Positions 2,591 to 21,025 of a stretch of 64,000 nt of DNA are shown in pieces (the first letter of the stretch is position 1; every line of letters starts with the position of its first letter). Both the position numbers and the translations under genes were made by a program. The stretch lies in the NCBI GenBank assembly GCA_022775005.1, contig JALFJR010000061.1:19943-83942 (forward strand), written 5' to 3'. The notes beneath the pieces were generated by a model that had not been told where the DNA came from, ran no database searches, and saw only the letters and a program-made list of their open reading frames with translations. The DNA comes from Parabacteroides sp. (lineage in GTDB: Bacteria > Bacteroidota > Bacteroidia > Bacteroidales > Tannerellaceae).

Positions 2591-3258
2591 TGTATCACTC
2601 CTCCGATTAAGTTCAGTATGCGTTTGGCGTAGGCCGAGGTCTCATCGGAGTGTGTCACCATCAGGATGGTTGTGCCCAGTGTTTGGTTCAATTCCTTGAA
2701 GAGGGAGGCGATGTTTTGTGCGTTCTCCCGATCTAATTGTCCCGTGGGTTCATCGGCCAACAGCAAAAGTGGTTGGCGAATCAAGGCACGGCAGACCGCT
2801 ACCCGACTGGCCTCGCCCCCGGAGAGGGTGGCGGGATAGGCATTGGCCAACCGTTCGATACGGGTGAGGCGCATCAACTCCTCTGCCCGTGCCTCCGCTG
2901 CTGCCTCCACCTGTGTGGCATCCGCTAACAGGGGAAGCAGGATGTTCTCTTTCACCGTGTAGGGGGCTAATAGTCGATGATCTTGAAAGACAAAACCAAT
3001 CTGGCGGTTACGTACACTGGCCAAGTTGACTAATCCGTTTGTGATCTCTTGTCCATTCAGGAAATAGCGTCCGCTATCTGGAGGCAAGAGCGTACCTAAA
3101 ATGGAAAGCAAGGTAGTCTTGCCGGAACCGGAAGCCCCTTTAATCGCTACGAAGTCTCCCTGTTCCACATGCAGGTTTACGCCTCGCAAGACATGGTTGA
3201 GGCGGTTGTCACCATCGTGAAAGCTTTTCTGTATAGCCACTAATTCGATTAATGCCAT
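2587..3258 (-). CDS. ABC transporter ATP-binding protein (LolD/MacB type)
   Basis: Walker A GASGSGKTT, signature LSGGEASR, Walker B LLLLADEP. Confidence 0.95.
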   Translation of the reverse strand: MALIELVAIQKSFHDGDNRLNHVLRGVNLHVEQGDFVAIKGASGSGKTTLLSILGTLLPPDSGRYFLNGQEITNGLVNLASVRNRQIGFVFQDHRLLAPYTVKENILLPLLADATQVEAAAEARAEELMRLTRIERLANAYPATLSGGEASRVAVCRALIRQPLLLLADEPTGQLDRENAQNIASLFKELNQTLGTTILMVTHSDETSAYAKRILNLIGGVIQ

Positions 3259-3280
3259 CTGTTTCGTTGTTTGTGGGCAG

Positions 3281-3359
3281 TTACCTGCCGTTTTCTATTT
3301 GCTTACTTGCCGTTTCTTTATGGATAAAAGGCCGTTTAACGATCGCTTAACCGGCGTTC
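3281..3359 (-). repeat. 22-bp-phased direct repeats (core AAACGGC on minus strand)
   Basis: GCCGTTT at 3287, 3309 and 3331, and GGCGTTC at 3353, exactly 22 bp apart. Confidence 0.6.
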
Positions 3360-4507
3360 TCTTGCTCTCCGAAGCAGAGCAGAGTGCCTTTAGCCGTTAA
3401 GATCAAGAAGCGTCCCTTGATAATCGCTGGAGAACCAATGATTTGTTCACCCGCATCATACTCCCATAGTAGTTCGCCCTCTTCGGCGTCGATGATGGAG
3501 ATCAGTCCGCTCTTTGTGCAGACCAATACCTTATCGTCACAAACCAAGGGGGAGCTCTCGCCTGTATTCCCTTTCATCAAGTATTTCCAGTTGAGGCTGC
3601 CATCCAAGCGATTGAAGGCGTAAAGATAGCGATCTGCAGAGAGAATGAAAAGGGTTTTGTCAGTAATTGCCGGCACGGAGACGAACGAGGCACCGGCCTC
3701 ACTGCCCTCCTGGATCTTACGCGTATGGGTGATCTTGCCCTTATCTAAGCTGAACTCGTAGATATTACCGGCATAGTCGCCTACATAGACATAGTCGCCC
3801 ATGACCGCCGGGGAAGCTGGTACATAGGCCTCTAACTCCACGGAGTCGGTGGGTAATCCACTTTGGCAGTTGATGATGCGCAACCAAGCATCACAGCCGC
3901 CAAACAGGACATGCTTTTTCCAGAGTGCCACGGAACCATTCAGGTAGTAACCTGACTCGAAGCGATTGATCAGCTGACCGCTTTGATCGCCGATGCAATA
4001 GAGGTAATTGTCGTAACTACCTACGACGATCGCCTGTTGCCCCTCGAAGCTCACTCGGTTCGGTGAAGCGGAGATCTGCCCCTCCGTCTCGAAGTTCCAG
4101 AGGGTATCTTGCTGGGCCAACGAGATTGCGCTCAACCAACCATCCAACCGACCGATGTAGAGCACGGAGTCGTGGATCATCGGAGTAGCCTCCACCTGCG
4201 TTTTGAGGTCGTAACTGAAGGCCAAGTTTCCAGAAGCATCCACTCCTCGCACCAGGCCACGGCGGTCGCACCAATAGGTGGTACCTTGATAGACAATGGG
4301 TGAAGAGACTGTGCGCACCTCGCTCTTGAAGCGCCACAACAGGGTAGGCTTCTTGGGGAGCGTACGGGAAGTGTAGCCGCTCAGTCCGGCATCCCCTCGT
4401 GAGAGTGACCAATTCAGTCCGTTGCCGTCATCCGGTTCATCACTGTTGTCTGTGCAGCTGAAGCCTAACAGACAGAGCAGAGCGATTAATATGCCATATT
4501 TATTCAT
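3347..4507 (-). CDS. PQQ-binding-like beta-propeller lipoprotein
   Basis: Lipobox-like LLCLLGFSC; repeated G.L.W.Y/F.. blades (LLWRFKSEV, TLWNFETEG, LNWKYLMKG, LLWEYDAGE). Confidence 0.85.
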   Translation of the reverse strand: MNKYGILIALLCLLGFSCTDNSDEPDDGNGLNWSLSRGDAGLSGYTSRTLPKKPTLLWRFKSEVRTVSSPIVYQGTTYWCDRRGLVRGVDASGNLAFSYDLKTQVEATPMIHDSVLYIGRLDGWLSAISLAQQDTLWNFETEGQISASPNRVSFEGQQAIVVGSYDNYLYCIGDQSGQLINRFESGYYLNGSVALWKKHVLFGGCDAWLRIINCQSGLPTDSVELEAYVPASPAVMGDYVYVGDYAGNIYEFSLDKGKITHTRKIQEGSEAGASFVSVPAITDKTLFILSADRYLYAFNRLDGSLNWKYLMKGNTGESSPLVCDDKVLVCTKSGLISIIDAEEGELLWEYDAGEQIIGSPAIIKGRFLILTAKGTLLCFGEQENAG

Positions 4508-4519
4508 GGTCTTTTCCTC

Positions 4520-5485
4520 CTATTCGGTTAAAAAGAGCGCACCAGTCGGGCAGAGTGTGGCTAACCGCTCCGGTGCATTGGGGCGATTCTCCTCCGGGAT
4601 GACCACCTGCATGATGAATCCACGGCGCTCAAAGGTGAAACCATTGTCACTGTTATAGACACAAAGTCCACAGCGGATGCATTTGGCTGGCTCATACCAC
4701 AAGCGTCCGTTCACATGAATTTTCTCTTTGACGGGCAATGCGGAGGAGACCTCATAGCGAGGGCGTTTGATTCCGGCCTCCGTGGTGTATCGACGCAGTT
4801 TGCAATCGGTATGTCCGGGGCAGGCACAATGTAGGCAGCGGGAAGGAGCATCGATCGTCTCCTTCAGCCACTCCTTCTCTTTCGGCGTGAAACGGCCCAA
4901 CTTAGAAATAAATGACCTCTTATCTGCCGCATGGGGCGCCACCTCCGGTAGCAAGGGCAGGTCAGCTCGCTCCGCTAATGACTGGATAATTGCCCGTATC
5001 TGAACCGCTTTATCTACTGTACCTCTTCGGCAGGCCTTCTCGCAGGGGGCTTTGCAGTCCGCGCAGCCCAATTGATCGAGCGGGAAGGTGGCAGCTAAGA
5101 AACTACGGGCCTCCGCCAACCGACCGGCATCATAAAGCCAGAGCAGATGCTCTACGTCTAACCCTTTTGGGCAGACAATCGAGCAGGGTGCTTCACAATC
5201 GGCTCGGTGGTCGCTGAGCAGCAACTCTAATGAGAGTTGGCGCAACTTCAAGACCTCTTCGCTTTGGGTGTCGATCACCATTCCTTCAGTGGGTAGGGTA
5301 GAGCAGGAGGGGATCATCTGTCCGGTCTGCACATTCTTCACTACACACACCATGCAAGAGGATTTGTGCTTCGCTCCCTTGGCGTAGCACATGGAGGGCA
5401 GCTCAATGCCCGCTCGGCGAGCCACTTCGATCAAGGTCTCGCCCTCATGTACCTCAATCACTTGATTATTGATCGTTATCTGCAT
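4520..5485 (-). CDS. 2Fe-2S / 4Fe-4S protein, NuoG N-terminal/GltD Fer4_20-like
   Basis: N-term plant-type 2Fe-2S CYAKGAKHKSSCMVC; CEAPCSIVCPKG and CADCKAPCEKACRRG; CIRCGLC. Confidence 0.85.
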   Translation of the reverse strand: MQITINNQVIEVHEGETLIEVARRAGIELPSMCYAKGAKHKSSCMVCVVKNVQTGQMIPSCSTLPTEGMVIDTQSEEVLKLRQLSLELLLSDHRADCEAPCSIVCPKGLDVEHLLWLYDAGRLAEARSFLAATFPLDQLGCADCKAPCEKACRRGTVDKAVQIRAIIQSLAERADLPLLPEVAPHAADKRSFISKLGRFTPKEKEWLKETIDAPSRCLHCACPGHTDCKLRRYTTEAGIKRPRYEVSSALPVKEKIHVNGRLWYEPAKCIRCGLCVYNSDNGFTFERRGFIMQVVIPEENRPNAPERLATLCPTGALFLTE

Positions 5486-5488
5486 ACT

Positions 5489-7879
5489 TCAAGACTTTAA
5501 AGCTACTTTTCGTATTGCGTTGTAACTGCACTCGTCGATGCATAAGCCACAGAGCACACACTTCTCGACCTCGATCTGGTGACGTGCATATGGCGTATAG
5601 GGAATGGCATCCGAAGGACAGGCCTTGGCGCACTTGGTACAGCCGACACACTCCTCCGTGATTTCCAACTTGACCATCTCTTTGCAGGTGCCTGTGCGAC
5701 AGATACCCTTTACATGTTCTTCATATTCCTCCCGGAAGTATTTTAGCGTGGAGAGGACAGGGTTGGGAGCGGTCTTACCCAAACCACATAAGGCCATCTG
5801 TTTGATGCTGATTGCCAACTCCTCCAATTTGTCAATATCCTCCATGGAACCTTTGCCGGTACAAAGCCGATCGAGTATGTCCAACATACGACGAATGCCG
5901 ACCCGACAGAAGGTACACTTACCGCATGATTCTTGACAGGTGAATGAGAGGAAATAGCGGGCTACATCCACCATACAGCTACTCTCACTCAGCACTACCA
6001 TACCGCCGGAACCCATGATAGCACCCATGCGGGTCAAGGCATCGAAGTCAACTGGAGCGTCGCACAGCTCTGCGGGGATACAACCGCCGGAAGGACCACC
6101 TGTCTGCACTGCTTTCAGCTTCTCGCCACCCTCGACGCCACCACCAATATCCTCGATGATTTGGTTCAGCGTGGTACCCATCGGTACCTCGATCAATCCA
6201 CCGTGGCAGACCTTTCCGGCCAAGGCGAAGACCTTTGTGCCGGGACTCTTCTCCGTACCGATCGTGCGGTAGGCCTCCGCTCCATGACGGATGATATAGG
6301 ATATTTGGCTCAATGTCTCGACGTTGTTGATCAGGGTCGGGCAGCCAAACAGTCCTTCGACAGCCGGATAAGGCGGACGTTGCCGGGGGAATCCACGCTG
6401 TCCCTCAATGGAGGCGATCAAGGCTGTCTCTTCGCCACACACAAAGGCTCCTGCTCCCTCAAAGATCGTAATGTCGAAAGAGAAGTCGCTGCCAAACAGG
6501 TTCTCGCCGAGCAAGCCTTTCTCCCGGCACAACTCGATCGCCTTGCGGGTACGGATGACTGCTTGGGGATATTCCGCACGAATGTAAAAGATACCTTTCC
6601 GTGCGCCTACGGCATAACCGGCGATGATCATACCCTCGATGACACGCAACGGATAGGACTCCAACAGGATGCGATCCATGAACGCACCGGGGTCACCCTC
6701 ATCACCGTTGCAGATGACATATTTCTCCGCTTTGTCGGTAGCGGCTACCAAGCTCCATTTCCGTCCGGTAGGGAAACCACCACCGCCACGTCCACGTAAG
6801 CCACTTTGCAAGATGGTGTCAATCACCGCTTGACGAGGCATCGTGGTGACTGCCTTCTCCAAGGCGGCAAAACCCTCATGGGCCATATACTCGTCGATGT
6901 CTAACGGCGAGATAATGCCGTAGCCTTCCGTGGAGATGCGCTTTTGGCGGGAGAGAAAAGTGTTGATCGTTCCGGTACGCTCCTGCTCCGATTTCCAGAG
7001 GATATTGTCCCAGGTCGTATCGGTATGGAACATATCCACCTGATTCAACAGGGCATTCTTCCAGCGACGCAAGCGATTGGCCGGCTTGAAGTGATGGAGC
7101 AGGATCTCCTTGATCTCCTCCGGCTTGACATTGGGATAGCGTTCGATCGAGCCATCCGGCAGTGCCACATCAATCAAGGGCACTTGATTGCAGGCCCCTA
7201 CGCAAGAGACCGGTTTGATAGCCACCTTGATACCCAGTTCGTGGGAGGCATCGAGCACTGCTTGATAAATCGCTGCCGTGCCACTTGCTTGGCAGCAGTT
7301 CTCCATGCCTAAACGAACCTCCCCGATTGGCGGTTCCTTAGCCTCATCAGCAGCCTGCGCCTCCTGCTCTTGCGCATACTGTTGAAACTCATCCAACACC
7401 TCTTTTACTCGCCCTGGTTGTACATGTCCGAAGATTTTCTCATCAATCTGTACTACCGGAGCCAAGGCGCAACAGCCTAAACAGGCAATCTTCTCGATGG
7501 AGTATTGCTGATCGGCTGTGGTGATAGTCTCTTCATCCATATTTAACTCCCGGCGGAACGCATCATAGACATTGTTCGCCCCCTTCACATGACAAGCGGT
7601 GCCGGTACATACCTTAATAATATGTCGTCCATAGGGAATGTGCCGGAACTGGGCATAGAAGGTGGAGACACTGATCATTTGTGCCCGGTCGATTTCCGTC
7701 CGCTCATACACCCGTTGCAGGGCATCGGAGGGCAAATAGCTAAACTCCGCTTGCAGGGCCTGGAGCAGGGGAATGATCACCCGCCGACTACGGCCTACCC
7801 GATCAATGATCGCATCCACACGGGCGATCATCGCCTCCTTTGTCTGAAGTCCGTTCTGTTTACAATCTGCACAAGCCAT
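5489..7879 (-). CDS. NADH dehydrogenase/hydrogenase-type flavo-FeS subunit, NuoE + HydB/NuoF-like fusion with C-terminal 2x[4Fe-4S]
   Basis: NuoE-like CTGTACHVKGA...CLGCCALAP; second thioredoxin-like 2Fe-2S (CCQASG...CVGACNQVP); LRGRGGGGFPTGRKW; ESCGKCTFCRVG; CVGCTKCAKACP and CVLCGLCIDEC. Confidence 0.92.
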   Translation of the reverse strand: MACADCKQNGLQTKEAMIARVDAIIDRVGRSRRVIIPLLQALQAEFSYLPSDALQRVYERTEIDRAQMISVSTFYAQFRHIPYGRHIIKVCTGTACHVKGANNVYDAFRRELNMDEETITTADQQYSIEKIACLGCCALAPVVQIDEKIFGHVQPGRVKEVLDEFQQYAQEQEAQAADEAKEPPIGEVRLGMENCCQASGTAAIYQAVLDASHELGIKVAIKPVSCVGACNQVPLIDVALPDGSIERYPNVKPEEIKEILLHHFKPANRLRRWKNALLNQVDMFHTDTTWDNILWKSEQERTGTINTFLSRQKRISTEGYGIISPLDIDEYMAHEGFAALEKAVTTMPRQAVIDTILQSGLRGRGGGGFPTGRKWSLVAATDKAEKYVICNGDEGDPGAFMDRILLESYPLRVIEGMIIAGYAVGARKGIFYIRAEYPQAVIRTRKAIELCREKGLLGENLFGSDFSFDITIFEGAGAFVCGEETALIASIEGQRGFPRQRPPYPAVEGLFGCPTLINNVETLSQISYIIRHGAEAYRTIGTEKSPGTKVFALAGKVCHGGLIEVPMGTTLNQIIEDIGGGVEGGEKLKAVQTGGPSGGCIPAELCDAPVDFDALTRMGAIMGSGGMVVLSESSCMVDVARYFLSFTCQESCGKCTFCRVGIRRMLDILDRLCTGKGSMEDIDKLEELAISIKQMALCGLGKTAPNPVLSTLKYFREEYEEHVKGICRTGTCKEMVKLEITEECVGCTKCAKACPSDAIPYTPYARHQIEVEKCVLCGLCIDECSYNAIRKVALKS

Positions 7880-7880
7880 A

Positions 7881-9689
7881 TCACTTCGCTGCTACACAAT
7901 AAATACTCTCTTCTGTTCGCACCACGATCTTGCCATCTGTGAAAGCCGGGGTCGCCAACGTACGCTCTCCAGTCTCAAAGGAGTTGATCAATGTAAAGGC
8001 ATCATCCGTAGAGAAAATGAACAGTTTACCATTGTTGCTGAAGAGGTAGAGTTTGCCCTCTACGATCATCGGGGAGGAGTAGAATTCCTCGTTCAGCTCA
8101 TGTTCCTTTACCAATGCACCACTTTTAGCATCGTAAGAGGCCAAGACACCATAGCTGGTTGCCAAATAGAGATGCTTCTTGGTCGCTACCGGGCTGGAAA
8201 CCTCTGGCAGGTATTCCGTGCTTTCCCACAACACCTGTCCATCTGTGCCGTTGATGGCTACTAACTTGGCATATTCGTTCGCTCCATAGATCACGCCATC
8301 TGCGCTGGCCGGGCAGGAGCAGACCTCTCCGCCCATGCAATCCACCTGCCAGAGCTGCTCGCCGGAGGTAGGGTCGTAAGCCGTCATCTGAGGATTGCCC
8401 ATCAAGACTAACTGTGGTTTCTGATTGACATAGGCAATAATGGGGGAGCTCCAGCAAATCTTGCCCGTACGTTTCTTCACCCATCGGGTATTGCCGGTCG
8501 CTACATCCAAGGCAAAGAGTTGCGGATCTTTGTTGTTGTCATATTGCACATAGAGCGTGTTGCCATAGATCAACAGTGAGGAGACAAAACCATAATGGTT
8601 GTCGGGCACACCTAAGTTTTTCGCCCATACTCGTTTGCCCTCCATATCGGCACAGAGCAGGTCTCCCGTAGCGAAGATGGCACACACATGCTTGCCATCG
8701 GTGGCTACGGATGAGGAGGCCAAGCCGGTATCTTCGGTGACTGCTGGCGGTGTAGCTGGTGAGCCGGGAATGTTGGTTGCCTGCATACTCCAGAGCTGTT
8801 CACCGGAGGTGAGGTCATAGCAGAACAGCTCGCGGGCCTCTTTGTCTCCACCCGTGAAGAAAACCCGGTTGCCATTGATGACGGGAGAGTTATGCCCTGC
8901 ACGAGGAATCGGTTTCTTCCAAAGGATATTGCTGCCACCCGCTAAGTCCCATTGGGTGGGTATCCCTTTGGCGGAGGAGATACCGTTGGATTGGTTGCCT
9001 CGGAAGGCGTTAGAGGTGACCTTGGAGACGGCGGGTTGAGGAACTTCAGCTATGGCTGGTGTTTCAGTGGTGACCGATGTTTCTGTAACTTCTGTCGGTG
9101 TATTTCCGTTGGTCTCAGTAGCGGCTGGTTGCGGTTCAGCCATTGCCTCTGTCGTTGCTGTCTCTTCTACCGGGACTGCCTCTCCACTATCAGCTATGAG
9201 CGTCTCTTCTGTCTCCTCCTTATTCTCTGAGGATTTCAAAAGCGGGGAAGAGAGAAAGACAAACAACAGGGCAACTGCTACCAATCCCAAGGTGCCCCAG
9301 GTGAGGTAACGACGGGATTTGGATTTCAGCATCCACTCGTCAATCGGATCGATCTCCTTGTCGGGGATGTGCATCTCTCCCTTGAAATAGAAACGGAGCG
9401 AGAGGACGAAGATTAGCACCATGCCCAAGAGGATATAGACCCCGCTCTTCAGGTGATCTTCCTGGATGAAGTAGGCACGGCGTGCCAACAGATCCAGCTG
9501 GCGAATCTGCTCCTGCAACACCGGATTATCCGCATTGGTGTCGTTGAGCTCCTTCAAGGTCTCGATCACCTCGGTTTGCAACGGGGTGATGCCCCTGACT
9601 TGGAAATAGTTGGTGATCAGCATCACCGACAATGTGATGATAAACACGGCTGTCACCGCAGCGATGTTCCGATAAATATCCTTATTCAT
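7881..9689 (-). CDS. Membrane-anchored PQQ-like beta-propeller protein
   Basis: Three N-terminal TM segments, Thr/Glu/Ala-rich linker, then propeller repeats (ILWKKPIPRAGHNSPVINGNRVFFTGGD; GEQLWQVDCMGGEV). Confidence 0.85.
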   Translation of the reverse strand: MNKDIYRNIAAVTAVFIITLSVMLITNYFQVRGITPLQTEVIETLKELNDTNADNPVLQEQIRQLDLLARRAYFIQEDHLKSGVYILLGMVLIFVLSLRFYFKGEMHIPDKEIDPIDEWMLKSKSRRYLTWGTLGLVAVALLFVFLSSPLLKSSENKEETEETLIADSGEAVPVEETATTEAMAEPQPAATETNGNTPTEVTETSVTTETPAIAEVPQPAVSKVTSNAFRGNQSNGISSAKGIPTQWDLAGGSNILWKKPIPRAGHNSPVINGNRVFFTGGDKEARELFCYDLTSGEQLWSMQATNIPGSPATPPAVTEDTGLASSSVATDGKHVCAIFATGDLLCADMEGKRVWAKNLGVPDNHYGFVSSLLIYGNTLYVQYDNNKDPQLFALDVATGNTRWVKKRTGKICWSSPIIAYVNQKPQLVLMGNPQMTAYDPTSGEQLWQVDCMGGEVCSCPASADGVIYGANEYAKLVAINGTDGQVLWESTEYLPEVSSPVATKKHLYLATSYGVLASYDAKSGALVKEHELNEEFYSSPMIVEGKLYLFSNNGKLFIFSTDDAFTLINSFETGERTLATPAFTDGKIVVRTEESIYCVAAK

Positions 9690-10978
9690 GATTCAGATGG
9701 TTTATGCGATTCATTCATTTGTTTATTCTGCGGACAATAGTTGAAGCACTGTCCACAGGCCACGCAATTAGCATGGTTGATCTCATACTGTTTACGGCTA
9801 CGTTTCACCGAGAGACGGATCAACGCCAATCCAATCACTAAGCCCATTAGGGCACCAGCTATCGTACACCAGAAACGATACTCTGTTACCTTGGCCTCAT
9901 AGAGGGCGGTGATCTCTTCTACGGATCGGCCTTGCCCGTAGAAAGCCTCCAACTCCAAGGAGAGTTCCTCCTCCGGCTGCGCCTCGTGCTGGATCACCTG
10001 GTCGTAGAGACGTACATCCTTGTGTGCTCGGCTCAAGTTCGGACTGGCCATACGCATCAACAGGGCACCCGCTATGATCATGACGGGTAGCACGACGAAG
10101 TAGGCCAACAGGCGACGTACACCGGCGCTGCGGCTCTCCTTCAGCTTGTTGGCGTAAGGCGGACGGATGGCATCCACCGGGCAGGAGTTGTGACACAGCT
10201 CACAGTTAATGCAGCTCTTGCGGGTCAACTTGATCTTCCAGATGGAGACGGATGAGAAGAGGCTCAACAGCGCCCCGTAGGGACAGAGGAAGCGACAGAA
10301 GGGACGACCGGTAAAGATCGACATGACCAGCAAAAGCGCACCAAACAGGATGAGTCCCATATCGCCGCCTAACCGGAAGATGCCGATGAAGGGATCGAAC
10401 TGGCAGATGATGAACTGGCTACGGGTCACCGCATAGAGCACGGCGAAGATGAGGTAGAGCCACGGGATCACCTTCAAGGCGGCAGTGATAGCCTCAGAGA
10501 TGCGGTAGTTTTTCACGTTGACCAACTCTTGCAAAGCACCGAAGGGACAGACTCCCGCACAGAATACCCGCCCGAACAGGAAGGCAAAGAGAATGGGCAA
10601 CAGGAAAAAGAGCAGCACCGTCAGCGGCAGATGGTAGCTGTCATCCACCAACGCCAAGGCGATGTTTTGGATAGAGCCGATGCTACAGACGCAGCCCTCT
10701 CGGAAGAAACCGAAGTAGCCCACGGAGATCAGCGACACCCAGAAGATGGGGCCGCGGGTGTGTCTCTTGTAGAGCGCCCATGTGACAATGCCCATCAGCG
10801 CGACCAACAACAGCAGGTCAAGGATGACCCACAACGTCTCGTTGGGCACCGCATACTGCAGGTCGGGATATTGGTAGCCCGATTCAAAGTCGGGTTTCGG
10901 GAAGCGGTTCTGTGCTTGGGCGATCCCCCAACACCCCACCAAAGCCGCTATCGTCTTTAATTTTCTCATGCGATTCAC
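9686..10978 (-). CDS. NosR/NapH/CcoG-like membrane polyferredoxin
   Basis: FCAGVCPFGAL and FCRFLCPYGALL motifs in a multi-TM protein; CINCELCHNSCPVDA; C-term CVACGQCFNYCP. Confidence 0.88.
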   Translation of the reverse strand: MNRMRKLKTIAALVGCWGIAQAQNRFPKPDFESGYQYPDLQYAVPNETLWVILDLLLLVALMGIVTWALYKRHTRGPIFWVSLISVGYFGFFREGCVCSIGSIQNIALALVDDSYHLPLTVLLFFLLPILFAFLFGRVFCAGVCPFGALQELVNVKNYRISEAITAALKVIPWLYLIFAVLYAVTRSQFIICQFDPFIGIFRLGGDMGLILFGALLLVMSIFTGRPFCRFLCPYGALLSLFSSVSIWKIKLTRKSCINCELCHNSCPVDAIRPPYANKLKESRSAGVRRLLAYFVVLPVMIIAGALLMRMASPNLSRAHKDVRLYDQVIQHEAQPEEELSLELEAFYGQGRSVEEITALYEAKVTEYRFWCTIAGALMGLVIGLALIRLSVKRSRKQYEINHANCVACGQCFNYCPQNKQMNESHKPSES

Positions 10979-11550
10979 TCCTTTAATTTATAGGCCGTAG
11001 CGTAGGGCACTCTGGTGATAGCGCCTGACGGACAGACCGTAGATATTTTACACTCGTTGCAATTCAGGCAGAGATCCTGTTTGATCTGCAGATAGAGCGA
11101 GCCGTTGCCAAACGAGCTACAGCCCTTCACGCATTTGCCACAGCCGTTGCAGAGCTCCTCGTCGATCATGTACTCGAAGTAGGGATCCTCCACGAACTTC
11201 CGTTGGATTGCCCCCGTAGGGCACATCAGGTTCTCTGCCGCCGTGTTCAGCTCCTTGACATTGGTGCGATAGTAGCCGCCACACAGGTCACAGTAGCCAC
11301 AGACCCGGTGGGCATGAATACATTTCACGGCGGATACTGGCAGCACGCAGTGGGTCTCACAGCGGCCACATTGGGTGCAGACCGTCGGGTCGATTTGCCA
11401 AAAGAGGTCTTCCTCCTTGCCGCCCAACTTAGGTGCCAAGCCTCCGGCTACCGCCAGGATAGAGCCTCCGGCCACCACCGATCCGCACAGCTTGAAGAAC
11501 TCCCGGCGACGGATCGGACTATGCTTTGGTTGATTATGCTTTTCTTCCAT
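10975..11550 (-). CDS. Tat-type 4Fe-4S ferredoxin (multi-cluster)
   Basis: RRREFFKLCGSVVAGGSIL leader; CTQCGRCETHC, CGYCDLCGG, CNGCGKCVKGC, CLNCNECKISTVCP. Confidence 0.88.
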   Translation of the reverse strand: MEEKHNQPKHSPIRRREFFKLCGSVVAGGSILAVAGGLAPKLGGKEEDLFWQIDPTVCTQCGRCETHCVLPVSAVKCIHAHRVCGYCDLCGGYYRTNVKELNTAAENLMCPTGAIQRKFVEDPYFEYMIDEELCNGCGKCVKGCSSFGNGSLYLQIKQDLCLNCNECKISTVCPSGAITRVPYATAYKLKE

Positions 11551-11560
11551 AGCCTTATAT

Positions 11561-12640
11561 TTAGATGGTTAGTCCCTCTTTCAGCGGACAGGGGATGCCG
11601 CAGGTTGCGCAAGCGGTCTCTCCGGCCAGCTCCTTTTTATATTGGAAAAGGGAGAGCGAGGCCTTTCCAGCCACCACCAGTTTGTCTTCCCATACCCGCA
11701 CCTCGTAGGCATTGTGCCCGCCTCCCAAGGCCTTCTCGTCCAGCAAGACACTGCGGAACTGGCCCTGCTTGTCGTAGCAGCTGACACGGGGTATGCCCTT
11801 CTCGGAAGTGAGTAGCTCGCCTGTGGCGGTCGAGGTGAGATAGACCGGGTTGCAACAGCCACTGAAATGGCCCTCCGCACCGCCGCCCTTGCCAAAGGAG
11901 GCGATAAACTCCCCATCAGGCGTGTAACTCTCTACCAAATGTCGTCCAGGATTGGAGCAGTAGATCACGCCATCCAACTCTGTGATGCCAAACGAGTAGC
12001 TGGGCACAATGAAACCAGAGGGACTGTCAATGAACTTCAAGAAGCCGCCCCCTTCGGTGTAGAGATGGATATTCTTATGGGCTGCATCGGTCACGAACAC
12101 CTTGCCTTGCGCCACAGCCAAGGAGCAATAGTCAGCCTCCTCGTCACACGCCTCCCAGTCGGTCAGCAGCTCGCCTTGCAGGTTATACACCTCGATCCGA
12201 GCGGGGAAAAGCAGGTAGATGCGGTCTGCAGCTACGGTCAAGTCACGCACGGAGCTACCCACCGAGAAGTTATCCACCAAGTTGCCCGTGGGTTCATAGA
12301 TATCTATGTTGTTGGGGGTAGCCACATAGAGCCGCCCTTGATACAGGTCGAAGGCCTCGATCTCGCCAGATGCCTGGAATGCCGACACCTTCCGATAGGG
12401 AGAGACGAAAGGCTTTCCAGTCGCACGCCGTTCAGCCGCCTGTGTCCGTTCCACATCGTAGAACAGGGCATCTGGACGGGTGAACATCTTCCACAGCAGG
12501 TTGCCTGTTACCCCTAAGATGCTTCCTCCAGCCAGCACAGAGCCGCAGATGCGCAGGAAGTGCTTGCGGGAGATTTTCTTTTCCATTGCATGTTTCGATT
12601 CCATCATGTATGTTTTTTCTTTTCTTGATTCATTAGACAA
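11561..12640 (-). CDS. NHL-like beta-propeller protein with Tat-like leader and C-terminal CxxCxxxC
   Basis: SRKHFLRICGSVLAGGSIL leader; propeller-like repeats; C-term ETACATCGIPCPLKEG. True start probably at an internal Met. Confidence 0.75.
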   Translation of the reverse strand: MSNESRKEKTYMMESKHAMEKKISRKHFLRICGSVLAGGSILGVTGNLLWKMFTRPDALFYDVERTQAAERRATGKPFVSPYRKVSAFQASGEIEAFDLYQGRLYVATPNNIDIYEPTGNLVDNFSVGSSVRDLTVAADRIYLLFPARIEVYNLQGELLTDWEACDEEADYCSLAVAQGKVFVTDAAHKNIHLYTEGGGFLKFIDSPSGFIVPSYSFGITELDGVIYCSNPGRHLVESYTPDGEFIASFGKGGGAEGHFSGCCNPVYLTSTATGELLTSEKGIPRVSCYDKQGQFRSVLLDEKALGGGHNAYEVRVWEDKLVVAGKASLSLFQYKKELAGETACATCGIPCPLKEGLTI

Positions 12641-14051
12641 TTCGTAAGCATTTTACGGTGTGGGCATCGCGCAACACCAAATAGCCATCGGCGTAGGCCA
12701 TCGGTCCCCAGGCATCCACGCCCTCCATGATGCGCTGTTGTTTCAACAGCTTCATCGACTTGGCTTCAATGGCATAGACATAGAGCTCGCCATCCTCCTT
12801 GAAGACAAACAGTTTTTGGTTGATCACCAAATAGGGACCTAAGCCAAAGCGCTCCTCACCGGAGGAGGTCCAGATTGGGTTATGTAGGTCGTTGGGAGAG
12901 AAGCAGACCAATCGGCTACGCAAACCACCGCCATCTTTGGGCATGACACTGATAATCATGTTGTTGAATAGGATAGGGGTCTGTTGCTCGCTGGAGAGTC
13001 CTTTATCTGCTTTATATTGGTCAAGCAATTTCGTGCTCCAGTTAGAGCCATTGTGATCTACTTGCAACAGGGCTCCTCCCGTACCGTAGCCAGCCACCAA
13101 GAAGATCTGGTTGTTGGATAGACGCAGCGGAGAGGGGGCGATGACGGAGGGTTGCCATTGCTTGGTGTGCCAAAGCAGCGTACCTACATCGTCCTTCTCG
13201 GCTGAAATGCCACAGACACCGCCTATTCCCGCATAAACAAAGGTGCGTTTGCCCCCAAGGGTCATCGGCATCACGGAGGAGTGAGACATCTTGTAGCCTA
13301 CGCTGTTGGGCGTTTGCCAGAGCAGCTCGCCCGTCTCAAGATCGACACCGGCTAACAGGGTCTCCTCGCCGGCAGGAGCCAGAATCAACTGTCCATTCTC
13401 CACGCAGGGACATTGACCAGTGTACCAAAAGGGGACCTCTGTGCTGAATTGCTTGTGCATATCCAAACCCCATTTCATCTCACCGGTCACTGGATCACAG
13501 CACATCACATGGCCTTGTGGGCCAACGGTGACCACATAGTCCTCACCCACCACGGGAATGGTGCGGGAGAAACCGTGATTGCGCTTCATCGGCACCCGAT
13601 ACCAACGTCGCCACAGCTCTTGGCCAGTAGCCAAGGAGAAGCAGCGTAGTGCGTCCGAGCTCAAGCCCTCATCGTAGTCGAGCACATAGACACGCCCTTT
13701 GTAGATGACCGGAGCAGCATGTCCCTCACCGGTATCAAAACTCCACAGTATCGGATATGCTTCAGAAGAGGTTTGGATCGCCTCTGCAGTCTCCACGATG
13801 TTCGTGTGGGTCGCTCCGCGGAAGTTGGGCCAGGCTCCGCTCAAGTCGGCGGGTACCTCGTCACTGTATTTCATGAAATACTCCCCAATCACCACATCAT
13901 CGGCCTTGCGTGCCAAACCCTCCGGGCGGTTATCTGCTCCCGGATTCTGAAGTGTCAGCGTTCGGGGGACATACAGATGCCACCCGATGAGCACAGCCGC
14001 ATAGAAGCAGGCCGTGGCAATAGTGATACTGATTGTCTTACGCTTGTTCAT
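12633..14051 (-). CDS. PQQ-like beta-propeller protein
   Basis: N-terminal signal/TM; repeats such as GQELWRRWYRVP, GEMKWGLDMHKQ, GELLWQTPNSVG. Confidence 0.83.
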   Translation of the reverse strand: MNKRKTISITIATACFYAAVLIGWHLYVPRTLTLQNPGADNRPEGLARKADDVVIGEYFMKYSDEVPADLSGAWPNFRGATHTNIVETAEAIQTSSEAYPILWSFDTGEGHAAPVIYKGRVYVLDYDEGLSSDALRCFSLATGQELWRRWYRVPMKRNHGFSRTIPVVGEDYVVTVGPQGHVMCCDPVTGEMKWGLDMHKQFSTEVPFWYTGQCPCVENGQLILAPAGEETLLAGVDLETGELLWQTPNSVGYKMSHSSVMPMTLGGKRTFVYAGIGGVCGISAEKDDVGTLLWHTKQWQPSVIAPSPLRLSNNQIFLVAGYGTGGALLQVDHNGSNWSTKLLDQYKADKGLSSEQQTPILFNNMIISVMPKDGGGLRSRLVCFSPNDLHNPIWTSSGEERFGLGPYLVINQKLFVFKEDGELYVYAIEAKSMKLLKQQRIMEGVDAWGPMAYADGYLVLRDAHTVKCLRIV

Positions 14052-15787
14052 ATCGTTTCTGTTCGTTCATTATATTGTTTCAATTTCTTCAAGGCCTGCA
14101 ACACGAAGGTGAGGCTATAGAGCTCCTCCGAATACCAGAGGCGGGCGAAGTAGAGGCCAATCGGTTCCCGTTGCAGCCAGGTGCCGTCGGCGTAACGCTG
14201 ATAGAGCCAGTCGAATCCTCGCTCGATAGCTTGCGGATCACTATCTGGATAGGAGGCTAAAGCACTGAGTGCTTTGGCCGTCAGTGTCACCTTTGAGGGG
14301 GCTCCTTTTGCGCCACCCCAGCCGCCGTCGTTGTTCTGGGCGGTGAGCAGGTAATGAATCCCTTTCGTAGCTAATGTTGCAGCCAACGGCTCATCCGAAG
14401 CGGCCAGGTATTCCGTAGCGGTGGCGGTACCATACACAGGCGATTGCTCACGAGGCTCGTTCTGGTCGCCGAACCAGAGAGGGATCCAAGATCCATCCGA
14501 GGCTTGTGCTTTCTCCATCCAGCCTAAGAGTCGTTGAATGCTCGCTTGACAGCGGTTTTGTAGGTCGATAGGTAGGGCTGGTTTCCACGATTCAAATGCC
14601 AACAAGGCATGGGCTGATATGTCTGGGCTGCTGCGGTCGAAAGGTAGTTTACCCCAGCCCTTGCAGAAGGTCGGCATACCGCCATCCCGGTTTTGCAACG
14701 CCAACAGCCACTCGATGCCATGCACTACCTCCGGACAGGGAACGCCCTTGCGCAGCGTGGAGAGAGCTGCCAAGGCACCAGACGTATCATCGGCATCGGG
14801 CACTGCACCTGGTAGATCGCTCCATCCCCAACCGCCGGGACGTGCGCCGGTGAAGGGATGGGGATAGGTGAAGGCGTTGGCACAGAGCTGACGATCCAAC
14901 GAACGGCGGTCATCAATAGACAGGTCATCGGCCAACACCTTGATGCTAATGGAGGTGACCCAGCCCGAAAGATCGGTATCAATGGGCCAGGAGCCATCCG
15001 GCCGGACTGTATTCAGCAGGAATTGGGCTGCTTTCTGCGTCACGGGATGTGAGCGGAAACCGGCACAGCTGAGACACATGCTGACGAAAGCGGTCAGCGG
15101 GGCCGCCTCTAAGAAGCCGCCATGCACTGGTTGCAACCGCTCCAAGACTCGCAGGGAGGGGGTGATGAAGCGACGGCGCAGCGGAGAGAGTATTCCCTGC
15201 TTTCCACGTTGGAAACGCAGGATGCCCACCGCAATCAAGGCCGGAATGGCATAGCTAACTACTGGAAGCTGCAGGAAGCGGAAGAGGCGTTGCGGCAAGA
15301 CCGACAGTTCAAACGGCAGCGGGGGGATGCGCTCCCAATCGTGAATCACGCCAGCCGAGGCGCACATCACCAAGATGGGCACCGAGAAGGTGAGATCTTT
15401 GCCATAATAGGTTAATACGCCTTTGATGATGGCCTCATCGGTGACATCGCCAAAGCGTTCGCTCAGGTAGTGGCGTGTCGCTTCCGGTGCTTGACCCATG
15501 GCGAAGAGTGCGGCGTAAGTGAGGAGGGTGGCGGTCATGTTGGAAGGGCTCTCTATACTGTCTCCCCAAGAGCCATCCGCTTGCATGGTGTGCAGCAACC
15601 ATTCCGCTCCGCACTGGATAGTCTCCGTATAGCGGTTGGCATCGATTTGCCGCAGGGCAAAGATGGCGACAGCCGTGGAGATGGCACTGGAGGAGAGTTC
15701 TCCTCGCCAGAGGCCTCCCTGTGTGCGTTTGGAGAGTAAAAGGCTGGTTGCCTCGTCTATCCATGTCTCTATTGTTTGCTTGTTCAT
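14048..15787 (-). CDS. Squalene-hopene cyclase-like class II terpene cyclase
   Basis: VPDADDTSGALAAL (DxDDT motif) plus about 8 QW/prenyltransferase repeats (QADGSWGD, RPDGSWPID, QNRDGGMPTF, QASDGSWIPLWFG, QNNDGGWGG). Confidence 0.88.
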   Translation of the reverse strand: MNKQTIETWIDEATSLLLSKRTQGGLWRGELSSSAISTAVAIFALRQIDANRYTETIQCGAEWLLHTMQADGSWGDSIESPSNMTATLLTYAALFAMGQAPEATRHYLSERFGDVTDEAIIKGVLTYYGKDLTFSVPILVMCASAGVIHDWERIPPLPFELSVLPQRLFRFLQLPVVSYAIPALIAVGILRFQRGKQGILSPLRRRFITPSLRVLERLQPVHGGFLEAAPLTAFVSMCLSCAGFRSHPVTQKAAQFLLNTVRPDGSWPIDTDLSGWVTSISIKVLADDLSIDDRRSLDRQLCANAFTYPHPFTGARPGGWGWSDLPGAVPDADDTSGALAALSTLRKGVPCPEVVHGIEWLLALQNRDGGMPTFCKGWGKLPFDRSSPDISAHALLAFESWKPALPIDLQNRCQASIQRLLGWMEKAQASDGSWIPLWFGDQNEPREQSPVYGTATATEYLAASDEPLAATLATKGIHYLLTAQNNDGGWGGAKGAPSKVTLTAKALSALASYPDSDPQAIERGFDWLYQRYADGTWLQREPIGLYFARLWYSEELYSLTFVLQALKKLKQYNERTETI

Positions 15788-16656
15788 AATGATCCTAATG
15801 CTAAAAGTCCGTAAAATAGGTATTCCACGTCACTCTCCTCTTCTAACAGCGTGGGGGCGAAGCCGCCGTTGGCCAACCAATGGGCCTCCACGAAGTCAGC
15901 TGCGGGATAGCGTGGGGTGACCGCATAATTCTTCAAGGTGAATAGGGCGGTAGCCGTAGAGAGCAGATCGGGTACCGGACTGACAGCCGTGGCTGAGAAG
16001 CCTCCTGTCCGCTGCTGGCTGTCGCGTAGGTAGGTGAGGGCCGTATGCGGATGATATCCGATAAGCTGGCCAATCACCGAGAGTGCAGCGGTCGTGGCAT
16101 TGGTCGAAGCGGTAGGCCAGCCGGCTACATTGGCATAGCCTCCTTCCGGCGTCTGATAATGTGCCAATTGGGCTAATTCCAACTGTGCGGAGGATAAACG
16201 TTGGCCGCAATCCTCTTGCAGGGAAAGCCAGAGGAAGCGGGCGTAGGGCGACCATGGATCGTCTAAGGGCACTGCGGCAAACTGCTCGAAAGCAGGGGGT
16301 GTTTGTGCCTTGCGCTGTTCCCAAGCCAGACGCAGCGCACCAACTGTGCATAGTCGATGCAATAGTTGGCAACGGCGGTAGGCGGCATAATGCACCAAAT
16401 CAAAGCTGTTCGGTTGCTGTTGCGTTAAATAGGTTGCCTGCTGCTCTGCATTTAAAGGCAGTTCCAATAGGTAGGCGAGTAGCCAACCAAAGGCGGTGTA
16501 ATAGAGATCTGACTCTCCTCGACGATTCATGAAGGAGCTGTCTGCCAAGCATTGCGAGGCGGTGAAGTCCCGCATCAAGCGCAGGGCCTCTGGAGTCAGC
16601 CGCTTCTTGCCGGCGACTAATCGACGCATCAATCGGAGAGAGATCGTTTGGCTCAT
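15784..16656 (-). CDS. Prenyltransferase/squalene-oxidase repeat-containing protein (small)
   Basis: Repeats TPEGGYANVAGW..., QQRTGGFSATAV..., LANGGFAPTLLEEESDVEYLFYGLLAL. Confidence 0.8.
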   Translation of the reverse strand: MSQTISLRLMRRLVAGKKRLTPEALRLMRDFTASQCLADSSFMNRRGESDLYYTAFGWLLAYLLELPLNAEQQATYLTQQQPNSFDLVHYAAYRRCQLLHRLCTVGALRLAWEQRKAQTPPAFEQFAAVPLDDPWSPYARFLWLSLQEDCGQRLSSAQLELAQLAHYQTPEGGYANVAGWPTASTNATTAALSVIGQLIGYHPHTALTYLRDSQQRTGGFSATAVSPVPDLLSTATALFTLKNYAVTPRYPAADFVEAHWLANGGFAPTLLEEESDVEYLFYGLLALGSL

Positions 16657-16667
16657 CAGGTAAAAAA

Positions 16668-18224
16668 TTAACGAAGGATGCGCTCCGTAACCCGGAAAAG
16701 CAGCCTTTTGAGTTCGACATGTTGGATAGGGTGCAGTGCCTGTAAGGCTGCTCGATGGGCTTGGTCGGCCATCTCTCGCACAGCGGTTAGAGCTTCCTGC
16801 AAATAGGGCTGATGTGCCGGTTGGCGCAAGAAGTTCTTTAGGTCGGCGCAGCTAAACAGCGCTGTCTGGAAATTCGTGTCCGGATGGATGGCGCAGAGTT
16901 GCGCCAAGACTGCGGAGGGACGGATGGCTAACGGACTGTCGTTGTCGAAGTCGGCCAAGTCGTCCAGCAGTTGATAAGCAATGCCTAACTGAGTAGCGTA
17001 TTGATGGAAAATAGTTGCTAATGCAGGATCTTCTTTGGCGCAAAGAAGGCCTAATTGCAGGGAAACCTCAAAAGCGGGCACGGTCTTATGGGTGAAAATG
17101 GCCAAGACGAAAGAGAGATCAAAGGGCTGCGGATCTCGGCTCCAAGCTAATTCCATGCCCTGTCCTTGGCAAAGCGCGAGGTGTGCTTCAGAGGCCACTT
17201 GCAGCAGACGGGTATCTCCAGCAGTGGCTAACAGCCGATAGCCTTCACCTAATAATAGATCACCTGCATTGATCGCCATCGGTATGCCGTGGGTGGCATT
17301 CACCGTGGGTTTACCATAGCGTTCTGCGTCTTGATCTTGAATATCGTCATGGATCAACGAGGCCTTGTGAAAACATTCGATAGCGATGGCGGCCTTGCGT
17401 ACCGATTCGGGTACCTCTGTCTCGCCGGTCAGCGCTAAGTAGGTAGCGGCTAATAGATAGGGACGCCACCGTTTGCCTTCGCCGCCCATCCAATCCCGAA
17501 CAATCTGCCCCGTCTCCTCCATAGCGGGAGAGAGGTAGCGGTTGAGGATTTCTGGCGTGAACCAATGATTGAGTTGGCTACGTAGCCCGTCGTAATCCAG
17601 AAGTTGCGCTTGCTGCTCGCTCCGCAGGTGCATCAGTTCGAGCACGTAGCGCTTATCTACCTGCGTGTCTTTGCACCCGTCGTAGTTAAGGGGAATCGCC
17701 AACCCCGGTACGGCATTACGTATTAATAAAGGAAAGGCCTTCTCTAAAGAGTCGAGACAGCTCACACCAATCACCGCATCGACTACCCGGTTTTGGATCA
17801 ATCCAACGACGGAGGTGAATCCCTCTGCCACGATGCTAAGCATACCCAATTGCTCCGCCTGCTCCTCTAAGTCTGGAATAGGGCAATGGTGGCAACGGTG
17901 GCAGAGCAGGCCTAACTCATCCACCTCTGCTTGGCAGTGTTTGGAATGGCTTAGGCATTTAGGCAGCAACAGAATGCGACGTTCGTAGGGGATCGTGGCG
18001 ATCGTGGCTTTCCACACCTGGTTGTGCAGCTCCACCATCAACCATTCTTGCAGGCTTTTGTCTGCCTCCGGAACGGCTTGCAGCAGCTGTGCCACCTCTT
18101 TCCGCAGTGCCTCCAAAGAGAGAGGAGGGCATAGGGTCGCCTGTTCCACATGCTGGCGTATGCGTTCACGCCAGCTGTTGCGTTCAGCCAATGTTTGCGG
18201 TATCGTATAGTGTCGCTTCTCCAT
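16668..18224 (-). CDS. DUF116 domain - polyprenyl synthetase fusion
   Basis: N-term Cys-rich HCQAEVDELGLLCHRCHHCPIPDLEEQAEQLGM (DUF116-like); C-term FARM HDDIQDQD and SARM LLDDLADFD of trans-isoprenyl diphosphate synthases. Confidence 0.87.
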   Translation of the reverse strand: MEKRHYTIPQTLAERNSWRERIRQHVEQATLCPPLSLEALRKEVAQLLQAVPEADKSLQEWLMVELHNQVWKATIATIPYERRILLLPKCLSHSKHCQAEVDELGLLCHRCHHCPIPDLEEQAEQLGMLSIVAEGFTSVVGLIQNRVVDAVIGVSCLDSLEKAFPLLIRNAVPGLAIPLNYDGCKDTQVDKRYVLELMHLRSEQQAQLLDYDGLRSQLNHWFTPEILNRYLSPAMEETGQIVRDWMGGEGKRWRPYLLAATYLALTGETEVPESVRKAAIAIECFHKASLIHDDIQDQDAERYGKPTVNATHGIPMAINAGDLLLGEGYRLLATAGDTRLLQVASEAHLALCQGQGMELAWSRDPQPFDLSFVLAIFTHKTVPAFEVSLQLGLLCAKEDPALATIFHQYATQLGIAYQLLDDLADFDNDSPLAIRPSAVLAQLCAIHPDTNFQTALFSCADLKNFLRQPAHQPYLQEALTAVREMADQAHRAALQALHPIQHVELKRLLFRVTERILR

Positions 18225-18255
18225 AGGGATTATAACAGTCTTCTTTTTTCAATCG

Positions 18256-18328
18256 CGATATTACAAACAACAAACGAATTCGCCAAAACTTCTGTCAGCA
18301 AGACGAAAAAAGGAGCAGGAAAGGCGAA
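18256..18328 (-). promoter_or_regulatory. Candidate promoter/operator A (upstream of DUF116-prenyl synthase)
   Basis: Minus strand: -33 TTTTG, 20-bp spacer, -7 TAATATCG; upstream TTCGTCTT/TTCGCCTT direct repeats with 21-bp period; gapless match to 20305-20377. Confidence 0.6.
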
Positions 18329-18344
18329 TCGAGCGATTCGTCTG

Positions 18345-19562
18345 CTATCCATACGCCCCGAACCCGAAGAAATAGCGTTTCTTGAGGAGGCGATAAAAGG
18401 GACTCTGCTCAGGGATCGCCTCTTCTCGCATGTCATGACCGGGAAGCCGACGCATGGCTGCTAACTCTTGGCGAACAGTGGCCCGTGAGGTGCTGTCTTC
18501 CGCTTGCCAATCATCGACGAAGTGCGCCAGTTTTTCTGGATCTTCCAACAAGATGCAACCTCGGGAGGTCTTTGCGGTTAGCTGTCGCAGGCCTGCCAAA
18601 TAGCTGGATTGCGCAAAGATAGCGGTCAGGTTAGAGGCATCGGCATTGATCTGCTCCTTGGCCATTTGCAGGGGCGGACAGAACTCCACGGCTCCGGTAG
18701 GAGAGATGTGGTGGCTCATCCCGGTAGCGGCGGGACAGATGGCCTGCCCCTTGTCATCCCAATAGGTGTCGATCAAGAAAAGAGGCGCATCCTTGCGCTG
18801 CTCCACCAAGAACTGACGCAGGTCACGAATCTGCTCCTTGGTCAAAGCATTCTCCGGATGCGGCTCCGCACCGACGGGACGATAGATGTAATACCATAAA
18901 TAATGGGCACCGGCGGCAGCCATCCGCTCGATATGCCGACGATTCACCAAATCGTTGAAATTGCTGCGGCAGATGCTGGCGGCTACCCCAAAGAAAAGAC
19001 CGGCCTCTCGACAAGCGGCTACGCCATTGAGGGTATGGGCATACACCTCTTTACGGCCTCTCCGTCGGTCGCTCTCCTCCTCCAGCCCCTCTACACTGAT
19101 CAAGGGGGTGACGTTGCCCATCCGGCGCAGGCGTTCGGCCACCTCGGCAGACAGAAAATGGCCATTGGTGAACAGCTGGAAATAGGCGTCGGCATGACGC
19201 TCCAGCAGGCCGAGCAGCCCTTTATAGAGAAGTGGCTCTCCGCCTAAGATACCAAAGAAATAGGAGCCATGCTTTTTCCCCTCCCGGATAATACCATCGA
19301 TCTGCTCCAACGAAAGACTGTGTTGGCCACCGGCCGATACCCAGCAGCCGGAGCAATGCAGGTTGCATCGCTCGGTGATCGAGATCATCACAAAGGCCGG
19401 GAAGAAGGGTTCGTCTTTTGCCATGCGTCGTTCGAAGGCGGCCATGCCCCATAGGTTGCGCCAACAGAAGTTATATCCTAATTTCCAAAGCACACGGGGC
19501 GAGCATTCCCCCAGGGGGCGCAAGGCGCAGCGGAAAGTGGCGATATAGTCGTGGAGAGTCAT
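18345..19562 (-). CDS. Radical SAM protein (SPASM/twitch-like C-terminus)
   Basis: CNLHCSGCW (CxxxCxxC), GGEPLL; C-term Cys at CPAATG, FCPP, RGCILL. Confidence 0.9.
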   Translation of the reverse strand: MTLHDYIATFRCALRPLGECSPRVLWKLGYNFCWRNLWGMAAFERRMAKDEPFFPAFVMISITERCNLHCSGCWVSAGGQHSLSLEQIDGIIREGKKHGSYFFGILGGEPLLYKGLLGLLERHADAYFQLFTNGHFLSAEVAERLRRMGNVTPLISVEGLEEESDRRRGRKEVYAHTLNGVAACREAGLFFGVAASICRSNFNDLVNRRHIERMAAAGAHYLWYYIYRPVGAEPHPENALTKEQIRDLRQFLVEQRKDAPLFLIDTYWDDKGQAICPAATGMSHHISPTGAVEFCPPLQMAKEQINADASNLTAIFAQSSYLAGLRQLTAKTSRGCILLEDPEKLAHFVDDWQAEDSTSRATVRQELAAMRRLPGHDMREEAIPEQSPFYRLLKKRYFFGFGAYG

Positions 19563-20278
19563 GCTTTCGGTCGGTTTTTCAAGAGGGAAACACTGGCTCT
19601 ACGAGCGGCCAATCGCTCACGCAGGGCGGTATTGTAGAGGGTGGCCGTGTCGATGCTGATGGCCTTCTCTTCCGCTTGTTCCCCACCGTTGATGGGCGCT
19701 TGGGCATATTTGGGGAAGATAATCGCTTGGGTCGGGCAGTTGCGGGCACAGGCCGGGCAATTGTTCTTGCAGTGCTGTGGTGCCTTCACGACGACCTTTT
19801 TCCCCTCCAAGGTATAGACGCCAAACAGGCAGAAGTCATGGCATTTGCCACACTCGATGCAACGACTTTTGTCGATGGTCGGGAACCACGCATCCTGCCC
19901 CGGTTGCTTTGAGAAGCTTTCGAGCTGCGTTCGAAACGCCGCTACCCGCTCAGCCGGGATTGCACTGTCGGCTGGAAGGTCTAAAGCGGTGAGCAACGTG
20001 GACAGGTCGTTCGCCCGCATATCCAATGTATGCGGAACGGGTTGCTCAGCCCATTCAAAGAGGGCCTTGATCGCCCGGGGATGGCAAGCTACCACTGTAT
20101 GTGCGGCGATCTCTCTCAACCGATCGGATTTGTTTTCGATCCATTCGCAAAGGTCGGGCACGATCTCAACCGCTTTGCCTGCCGCTTCCAAGATAGCGGC
20201 TAATTGGGCCACCTTCTCGGGGTTGATGAAGGTGCGAGAGGCGCAAGCGCATAGCGTGATTTTCTGGGATTGCATCAT
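19559..20278 (-). CDS. 4Fe-4S ferredoxin-domain protein
   Basis: CIECGKCHDFCLFGVY and CKNNCPACARNCP. ORF track starts at 20335, but the conserved promoter block (20305-20377) implies a start at MMQSQKITL (~20278). Confidence 0.85.
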   Translation of the reverse strand: MMQSQKITLCACASRTFINPEKVAQLAAILEAAGKAVEIVPDLCEWIENKSDRLREIAAHTVVACHPRAIKALFEWAEQPVPHTLDMRANDLSTLLTALDLPADSAIPAERVAAFRTQLESFSKQPGQDAWFPTIDKSRCIECGKCHDFCLFGVYTLEGKKVVVKAPQHCKNNCPACARNCPTQAIIFPKYAQAPINGGEQAEEKAISIDTATLYNTALRERLAARRASVSLLKNRPKA

Positions 20279-20304
20279 ATCTGTATAGCCTTTTTTACGG
20301 CGTG

Positions 20305-20377
20305 CAATATTACAAACTACGGATGAAACCGCCAAAATTTTGTGTGGGAAGACGAAAAAAGAATCAGTGAAGACGAA
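20305..20377 (-). promoter_or_regulatory. Candidate promoter/operator B (upstream of ferredoxin-radical SAM unit)
   Basis: Minus strand: -33 TTTTG, 20-bp spacer, -7 TAATATTG; two TTCGTCTT repeats with 21-bp period. Confidence 0.62.
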
Positions 20378-20422
20378 AAGAAATTATCTTTACGCCTCGA
20401 AATTTTTTAGAAGTTAGCGCGT

Positions 20423-21025
20423 ATGTTATTACCCTATATGCAAGATGGACGAATCGAGGCGGGCTGTGATGAGGCTGGCAGAGGTTGCTTGGCAGGTGCC
20501 GTGTTTGCTGCCGCAGTTGTGTTACCGCCTGATTTTAAGAGCGAAGAGTTGAACGACAGCAAGCAGTTGAGCGAACGCAAACGGTATGCCCTGCGTCCGT
20601 TGATTGAGCGGGAGGCCTTGGCTTGGGCGGTGGGGGTGGTCACGCCGGAAGAGATCGACCGGATCAACATCTTGAATGCCTCTTTCTTAGCGATGCACCG
20701 AGCGGTGGATCAACTCAAGATCCGACCCGATCACCTGCTGATTGATGGCAACCGCTTCAATCCCTATCCTGCGATTCCCCATACAACGGTGGTAAAGGGG
20801 GATGGCAAATACCTGAGCATCGCTGCCGCCTCTATCTTGGCAAAGACCTATCGTGATGATTATATGAATGAATTGGCTGCTCGCTTTCCCGCCTACCACT
20901 GGCAGGAGAACAAGGGTTATCCCACCAAGGCGCATCGGGAGGCCATCCGCCAATGTGGCATTACCCCTTACCACCGCAAGACTTTCACGCTCCTCCCCCG
21001 CCAACTATCGCTGTTTGAGGAATGA
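20423..21025 (+). CDS. rnhB: Ribonuclease HII
   Basis: [35 protein letters not shown]. Confidence 0.95.

Follow-up and report, generated by a model that had tools for sequence, protein, structure and literature searches.

LytTR regulators bind direct repeats of 9–11 nt that are separated by 11–13 nt, and for YpdB one monomer is assigned to each box (PMC4847170). Both the position of such an operator and its helical phasing with respect to the promoter are important (PMC2838878), and in Bacteroides the predicted LytTR operators are placed 11 bp ahead of a -33/-7 promoter (PMC6193735). For LytTR proteins of Bacteroidales, the only operator sequences that we found in the literature are two LRS-like predictions from Bacteroides (PMC6193735).

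Here we analysed a stretch of 64,000 nucleotides (the window) on contig 28 of a Parabacteroides genome (G000). The window carries, at 2587–20278, a terpene-plus-redox gene cluster with a DUF116-polyprenyl synthetase fusion; among named organisms, those with the nearest relatives of this cluster are Parabacteroides. The cluster is patchily distributed, the DUF116-prenyl synthase being present in 29 of 125 genomes of the family, and a literature search on such clusters yielded nothing relevant. Our analysis makes it likely that two promoters of this cluster are under LytTR operators, with predicted activation by a candidate LytTR protein encoded on contig C19, and that the second promoter arose by duplication. 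Anatomy, conservation, linkage to LytTR genes and duplication emerge from sequence comparison and are described in turn.

Two copies of a predicted promoter-operator unit

The longest direct repeat of the region pairs 18255–18328 with 20304–20377, without gaps, at a constant offset of 2049 and with 54 of 74 positions identical (Table 1). The first-pass annotation had already recognised most of this repeat (52 of 71 identical over 18258–18328), the minus-strand arrangement TTTTG-N20-TAATAT(T/C)G in both copies, and repeats exactly 21 bp apart; all three observations were borne out, the repeat being slightly longer than described. On the minus strand, either copy has TTCGyCTT-N13-TTCGTCTT, followed after 11 bp by TTTTG and after a further 20 bp by TAATAT(T/C)G. 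The AAGACGAA box is exact at 20349, 20370 and 18300 and has one mismatch at 18321 (AAGGCGAA). The box geometry in the window is TTTTCGTCTT-N11-TTTTCGTCTT, and relatives prefer a spacing of 20–21. A short leader follows from the -7 element to the ATG, located at 20278 for the ferredoxin gene and at 18224 for the DUF116-prenyl synthase gene. The genes at 3347–7879, which lie on the same strand, probably continue the operon.

Table 1. Window positions of the predicted regulatory elements and of the genes of the cluster.
Feature	Position	Strand	Basis
Putative ancestral promoter-operator unit upstream of ferredoxin gene	20304..20377	-	Repeat alignment, conservation in relatives
Predicted distal operator box TTTTCGTCTT, ferredoxin-operon promoter	20370..20379	-	Exact match, conserved in family
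Predicted proximal operator box TTTTCGTCTT, ferredoxin-operon promoter, 21 bp from distal	20349..20358	-	Exact match; model R1 20.2 bits
-33-like element TTTTG, ferredoxin-operon promoter	20333..20337	-	Sequence
-7-like element TAATATTG, ferredoxin-operon promoter	20305..20312	-	Sequence; identical position and sequence in relative L068
Promoter-operator unit, ~75 bp, very probably duplicated, between radical SAM and DUF116-prenyl synthase genes	18255..18328	-	Repeat alignment; three closest species only
Predicted distal operator box GATTCGCCTT, internal promoter	18321..18330	-	Sequence, matrix
Predicted proximal operator box TTTTCGTCTT, internal promoter	18300..18309	-	Exact match, model R1
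-33-like element TTTTG, internal promoter	18284..18288	-	Sequence
-7-like element TAATATCG, internal promoter	18256..18263	-	Sequence
4Fe-4S ferredoxin-type protein, first gene of operon	19559..20278	-	Pfam
Radical SAM protein, 4-bp overlap with ferredoxin gene	18345..19562	-	Pfam PF04055
DUF116-polyprenyl synthetase fusion, first gene past internal promoter	16668..18224	-	Pfam
Two prenyltransferase/squalene-hopene-cyclase-like proteins	14048..16656	-	Pfam
PQQ-type propeller, NHL-like, NapG-like and NapH-like Fe-S proteins, second PQQ-type propeller	7881..14051	-	Pfam/NCBIfam
NuoE/F-like fusion, Fe-S protein, third PQQ-type propeller	3347..7879	-	Domain search

Primary-sigma promoters of Bacteroidetes have a -33 element TTTG and a -7 element TAnnTTTG, with about 20 bp in between. 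Measured against this pattern, both copies have the right -33 element and spacing; their -7 elements are TAATATTG and TAATATCG, and most relatives have NAnnTTTG. No conservation of the -33 element was seen in the family alignment of sites. The repeats lie immediately upstream of -33, with 11 bp between the end of the proximal box and TTTTG, as for LytTR operators, and both putative operators fit LytTR operator geometry.

The ferredoxin operator overlaps the likely divergent promoter of rnhB (window 20349–20423; plus-strand TATCTTTA near 20387, ATG at 20423), so that binding of a regulator could affect rnhB.

Conservation upstream of orthologous ferredoxin genes

In most of 26 clusters, paired boxes 20–21 bp apart are present ahead of the ferredoxin ortholog, and the conservation in orthologous clusters on which the earlier reading had been made to depend was thus found. 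When scored with the footprint pattern TTTTCGyyTT-N10/11-TTTTCsyyTT, 22 of the 26 upstream sequences reached at least 17 of 20 (19 without the window and two close sisters), a count that is partly circular since the consensus was drawn from the same 26 sequences. Dinucleotide shuffles reached such scores rarely or never (at most 1.3%). The footprint displayed a sharp preference for a spacing of 20–21, and at most sites in relatives a Bacteroidetes -7 element occurs 44–48 bp from the proximal box. Four of the 26 clusters (L083, L084, L090, L091) have no recognisable site before the ferredoxin gene.

Motif searches and the probable class of the regulator

A genome-wide search with the bare pattern suggested earlier, AAGACGAA-N13-AAGACGAA with up to three mismatches, was uninformative, as it returned 88 matches versus 108 for the reversed control. 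The pattern TTCGTYTT-N20..50-TAnnTTTG occurred seven times in the genome, four times with the same spacing, and on this result we built a matrix from 20 orthologous ferredoxin promoters, including that of the window itself. Within the 64-kb window, the two sites scored 37.0 and 27.7 and the next best 12.8. Applied at one threshold to 30 loci chosen by homology to a LytTR response regulator and to 27 rnhB loci as controls, the matrix detected sites at 21 of the former and at none of the latter; among 18 other loci of the window genome it detected none. Sites at LytTR loci have almost exclusively a spacing of 20–21, and several of these loci carry two, the first preceding the kinase gene and the second just past the regulator gene. 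In an order-wide LytTR search the exact box occurred in a few relatives only and is not universal; it is mostly missing from the more remote LytTR loci of the order, among them two with 70% identity to C19.

A second model, R1, was derived from 42 sites of other genomes, excluding G000 and its two close sisters, G040 and G064. Within the window, R1 placed the two promoters first and second. In the whole window genome, its best five matches (E-values 0.002 to 0.08) were first the ferredoxin promoter; second a site that precedes an unlinked gene for a PQQ-type propeller and has its -7 element at 46 bp; third the promoter beside the LytTR pair on contig C79; fourth the internal promoter at 18.3 kb; and fifth a site upstream of the C19 LytTR kinase gene. 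The same box sites are thus found at promoters of LytTR genes, including that of the C19 kinase. About five sites rank clearly genome-wide; as single matches they are modest, and the argument therefore rests on the identity of the top matches. Based on the ranks in the whole genome and on the enrichment at LytTR loci, the element is best read as a predicted LytTR operator, which we consider very likely.

Two other readings of the boxes were weighed. Direct repeats placed upstream of -33 and two turns apart are a classical feature of AraC-type activators, whose sites comprise 17-bp half-sites 21 bp apart with an AraC-type gene associated. Such regulators are common in Bacteroidales, and the boxes might be bound by an activator of the AraC type or of the hybrid two-component type that likewise employs direct repeats spaced by 21 bp. 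However, none of the inspected sites showed an AraC gene, while across many genomes the boxes are concentrated at LytTR genes, and LytTR genes adjoin the cluster in relatives, making this assignment very unlikely. Even less probable, to a degree that we hardly expect it, is a role as phased UP-like elements by which the boxes would increase basal promoter strength with no specific regulator involved. The boxes are T-rich and placed where UP elements lie, and phased T-tracts bend DNA, but across the 42 sites the core TTCG is conserved (T, T and C invariant, G over 90%) and is not pure A/T; the small number of clear-ranking sites in the genome and their enrichment at LytTR loci likewise argue against this reading.

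Two further loci with the same type of site were noted. The unlinked PQQ-type propeller gene (L195:1501-2930, contig C102 of G000) has 57–60% relatives in or near the cluster in G065, G075, G076 and G077. A site also precedes an aquaporin-family gene beside an ArsR-type regulator (L062:8343-9717), 4 kb from the C19 LytTR pair.

The candidate LytTR protein

The window genome encodes at least three LytTR proteins, among them C19 and C79, in which PF04397 is combined with a receiver domain. In G052, G017 and G003, genes for LytTR regulators lie directly beside the cluster; in G004, G076, G077 and G029, they are found about 24 kb from the DUF116 gene. All of these cluster-linked regulators group with C19 (support 100/98) and are separate from C79 and C64. 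A C19-type regulator occurs in 21 of 29 cluster genomes compared to 29 of 96 others (p=7e-5, phylogeny not accounted for). G040, which is near-identical in the cluster and has both operators, contains C19 and lacks a C79-type regulator. Taken together, the grouping in the tree, the situation in G040 and the co-occurrence point to the LytTR protein at C19:21620-22372 as the best candidate, and we lean slightly towards it as the likeliest regulator. A PDB search with this protein matched mainly receiver domains and was of no help on base contacts.

C79 was first taken as the regulator and was demoted because G040 has none. That it is nevertheless the cognate protein of the LytTR site, or that several LytTR proteins with overlapping specificity act there, would agree with the box between the kinase gene and a secreted-protein gene at the C79 locus and with the occurrence of that secreted protein beside the cluster in G052 and G121. 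Since both operators persist in the near-identical sister without a C79-type regulator, and the cluster-linked regulators are all nearer to C19, we regard this as rather unlikely. The C19-type regulator, our preferred candidate, was not found in 8 of the 29 cluster genomes, several of them incomplete drafts, nor was it detected in G064 (84% complete), which has both operators. The failure to find it in these 8 genomes and its presence in 29 genomes without the cluster indicate that it is not dedicated to the cluster.

A 129-aa secreted-type protein without Pfam match is encoded beside a LytTR kinase-regulator pair (L061:8866-9255), and in G052 and G121 relatives of it are encoded directly ahead of the ferredoxin gene.

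Probable origin of the internal promoter

In more distant relatives, the genes for ferredoxin, radical SAM protein and DUF116-prenyl synthase share a single promoter as one operon, and the gap between the latter two genes is mostly 2–70 bp and devoid of a promoter; in the exception, L091, it consists of 549 bp of unrelated sequence. The corresponding gap in G000, G040 and G064 measures 123–143 bp and contains the second copy. Copies were compared in pairs within the window and among G040, G064 and G052. Outside the boxes and the -7 element, the two window copies are identical at 28 of 45 positions, a value reached in none of 20,000 permutations, and the same was observed in G064, whereas the orthologous promoters of G064 and G052 share only 17 of 45. 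This similarity beyond boxes and -7, compared to that between orthologs, indicates that the second copy is a recent duplicate of the first. The copy at 18.3 kb is thus very probably a promoter-operator duplication of about 75 bp that is restricted to the three closest species. The first-pass annotation had proposed one regulator for two units: a shared regulator is supported by the conserved boxes, the enrichment at LytTR loci and the genome-wide search; the two promoters very probably do not represent two ancestral regulated units.

The distal box of the internal copy is imperfect (GATTCGCCTT) and more distant relatives lack this copy, which might suggest a decaying relic of the duplication with no present function. 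We consider a relic improbable, as the operator scores in G000 and G064 are far above the prediction for neutral decay (P 0.0005–0.02) and -33, -7 and spacing are intact. The scores rather indicate that the internal copy is probably used, and it is apparently kept by selection. Comparable internal sites are present in G076 and G077 before a PQQ-type propeller gene.

Proposed mechanism and comparison with known systems

From these data we infer how the regulator might bind and activate, which protein it is and why the promoter was duplicated. Each copy would represent a Bacteroidetes promoter preceded by a LytTR operator, in which two direct TTTTCGyyTT boxes, two helical turns apart, each accept one regulator molecule, and about 11 bp lie between the proximal box and -33. 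The phosphorylated LytTR regulator, most likely C19, would occupy the two boxes on a single helix face and recruit RNA polymerase. Activation is the usual outcome for an operator in such a position. The first promoter would switch on the ferredoxin and radical SAM genes, and the second the DUF116-prenyl synthase gene plus the remainder of the cluster. The first promoter is presumably ancestral and may once have served the whole cluster as one operon, until about 75 bp of it were copied into the radical SAM–DUF116 gap in an ancestor of the three closest species. The second promoter could thereby strengthen transcription of the long downstream portion without changing its control.

For LytTR signalling in relatives of Parabacteroides, the analysis provides a specific operator sequence, together with a candidate regulator and a candidate regulon of few members, and it ties an unexplained terpene/redox cluster to predicted LytTR control. 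The promoter duplication, by which one operon was apparently split into two units with the operator kept, offers a clean small case of internal-promoter gain. More tentatively, a LytTR two-component system and the adjacent small secreted protein might govern an uncharacterised terpene-plus-periplasmic-redox pathway family-wide; lineages may then tune it by placing further copies of the promoter-operator cassette at internal operon positions, here before the DUF116-prenyl synthase gene and in G076 and G077 before a PQQ-type propeller gene. We regard this generalisation as possible rather than probable.

Overall, the system is of a known kind, while its operator sequence and its target are new. 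With the LytTR operators and autoregulated LytTR loci of HdrRM/BrsRM and the LRS-like operons of Bacteroides (PMC6193735), it shares two direct repeats about 21–22 bp apart centre to centre, their position about 11 bp upstream of -33/-7, and sites at the regulator's own locus. It differs in the box, TTTTCGyyTT here and TCCGG(T/C)ATTCA there, in having a kinase plus response regulator instead of a membrane-protein LRS, and in its target, a terpene/redox cluster. Similar to the YpdB/yhjX operator of E. coli (PMC4847170), a response regulator with a LytTR domain would be paired with tandem repeats (GGCATTTCAT for YpdB) of the 11–13 nt spacer class, one monomer per box; sequence, promoter type, phylum and target are different. 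The VirR boxes of Clostridium perfringens (PMC2838878) are likewise imperfect direct repeats that share one helix face and immediately precede the promoter, and for which spacing and phasing are critical, but they differ in box sequence, in the Gram-positive promoter and in their targets.
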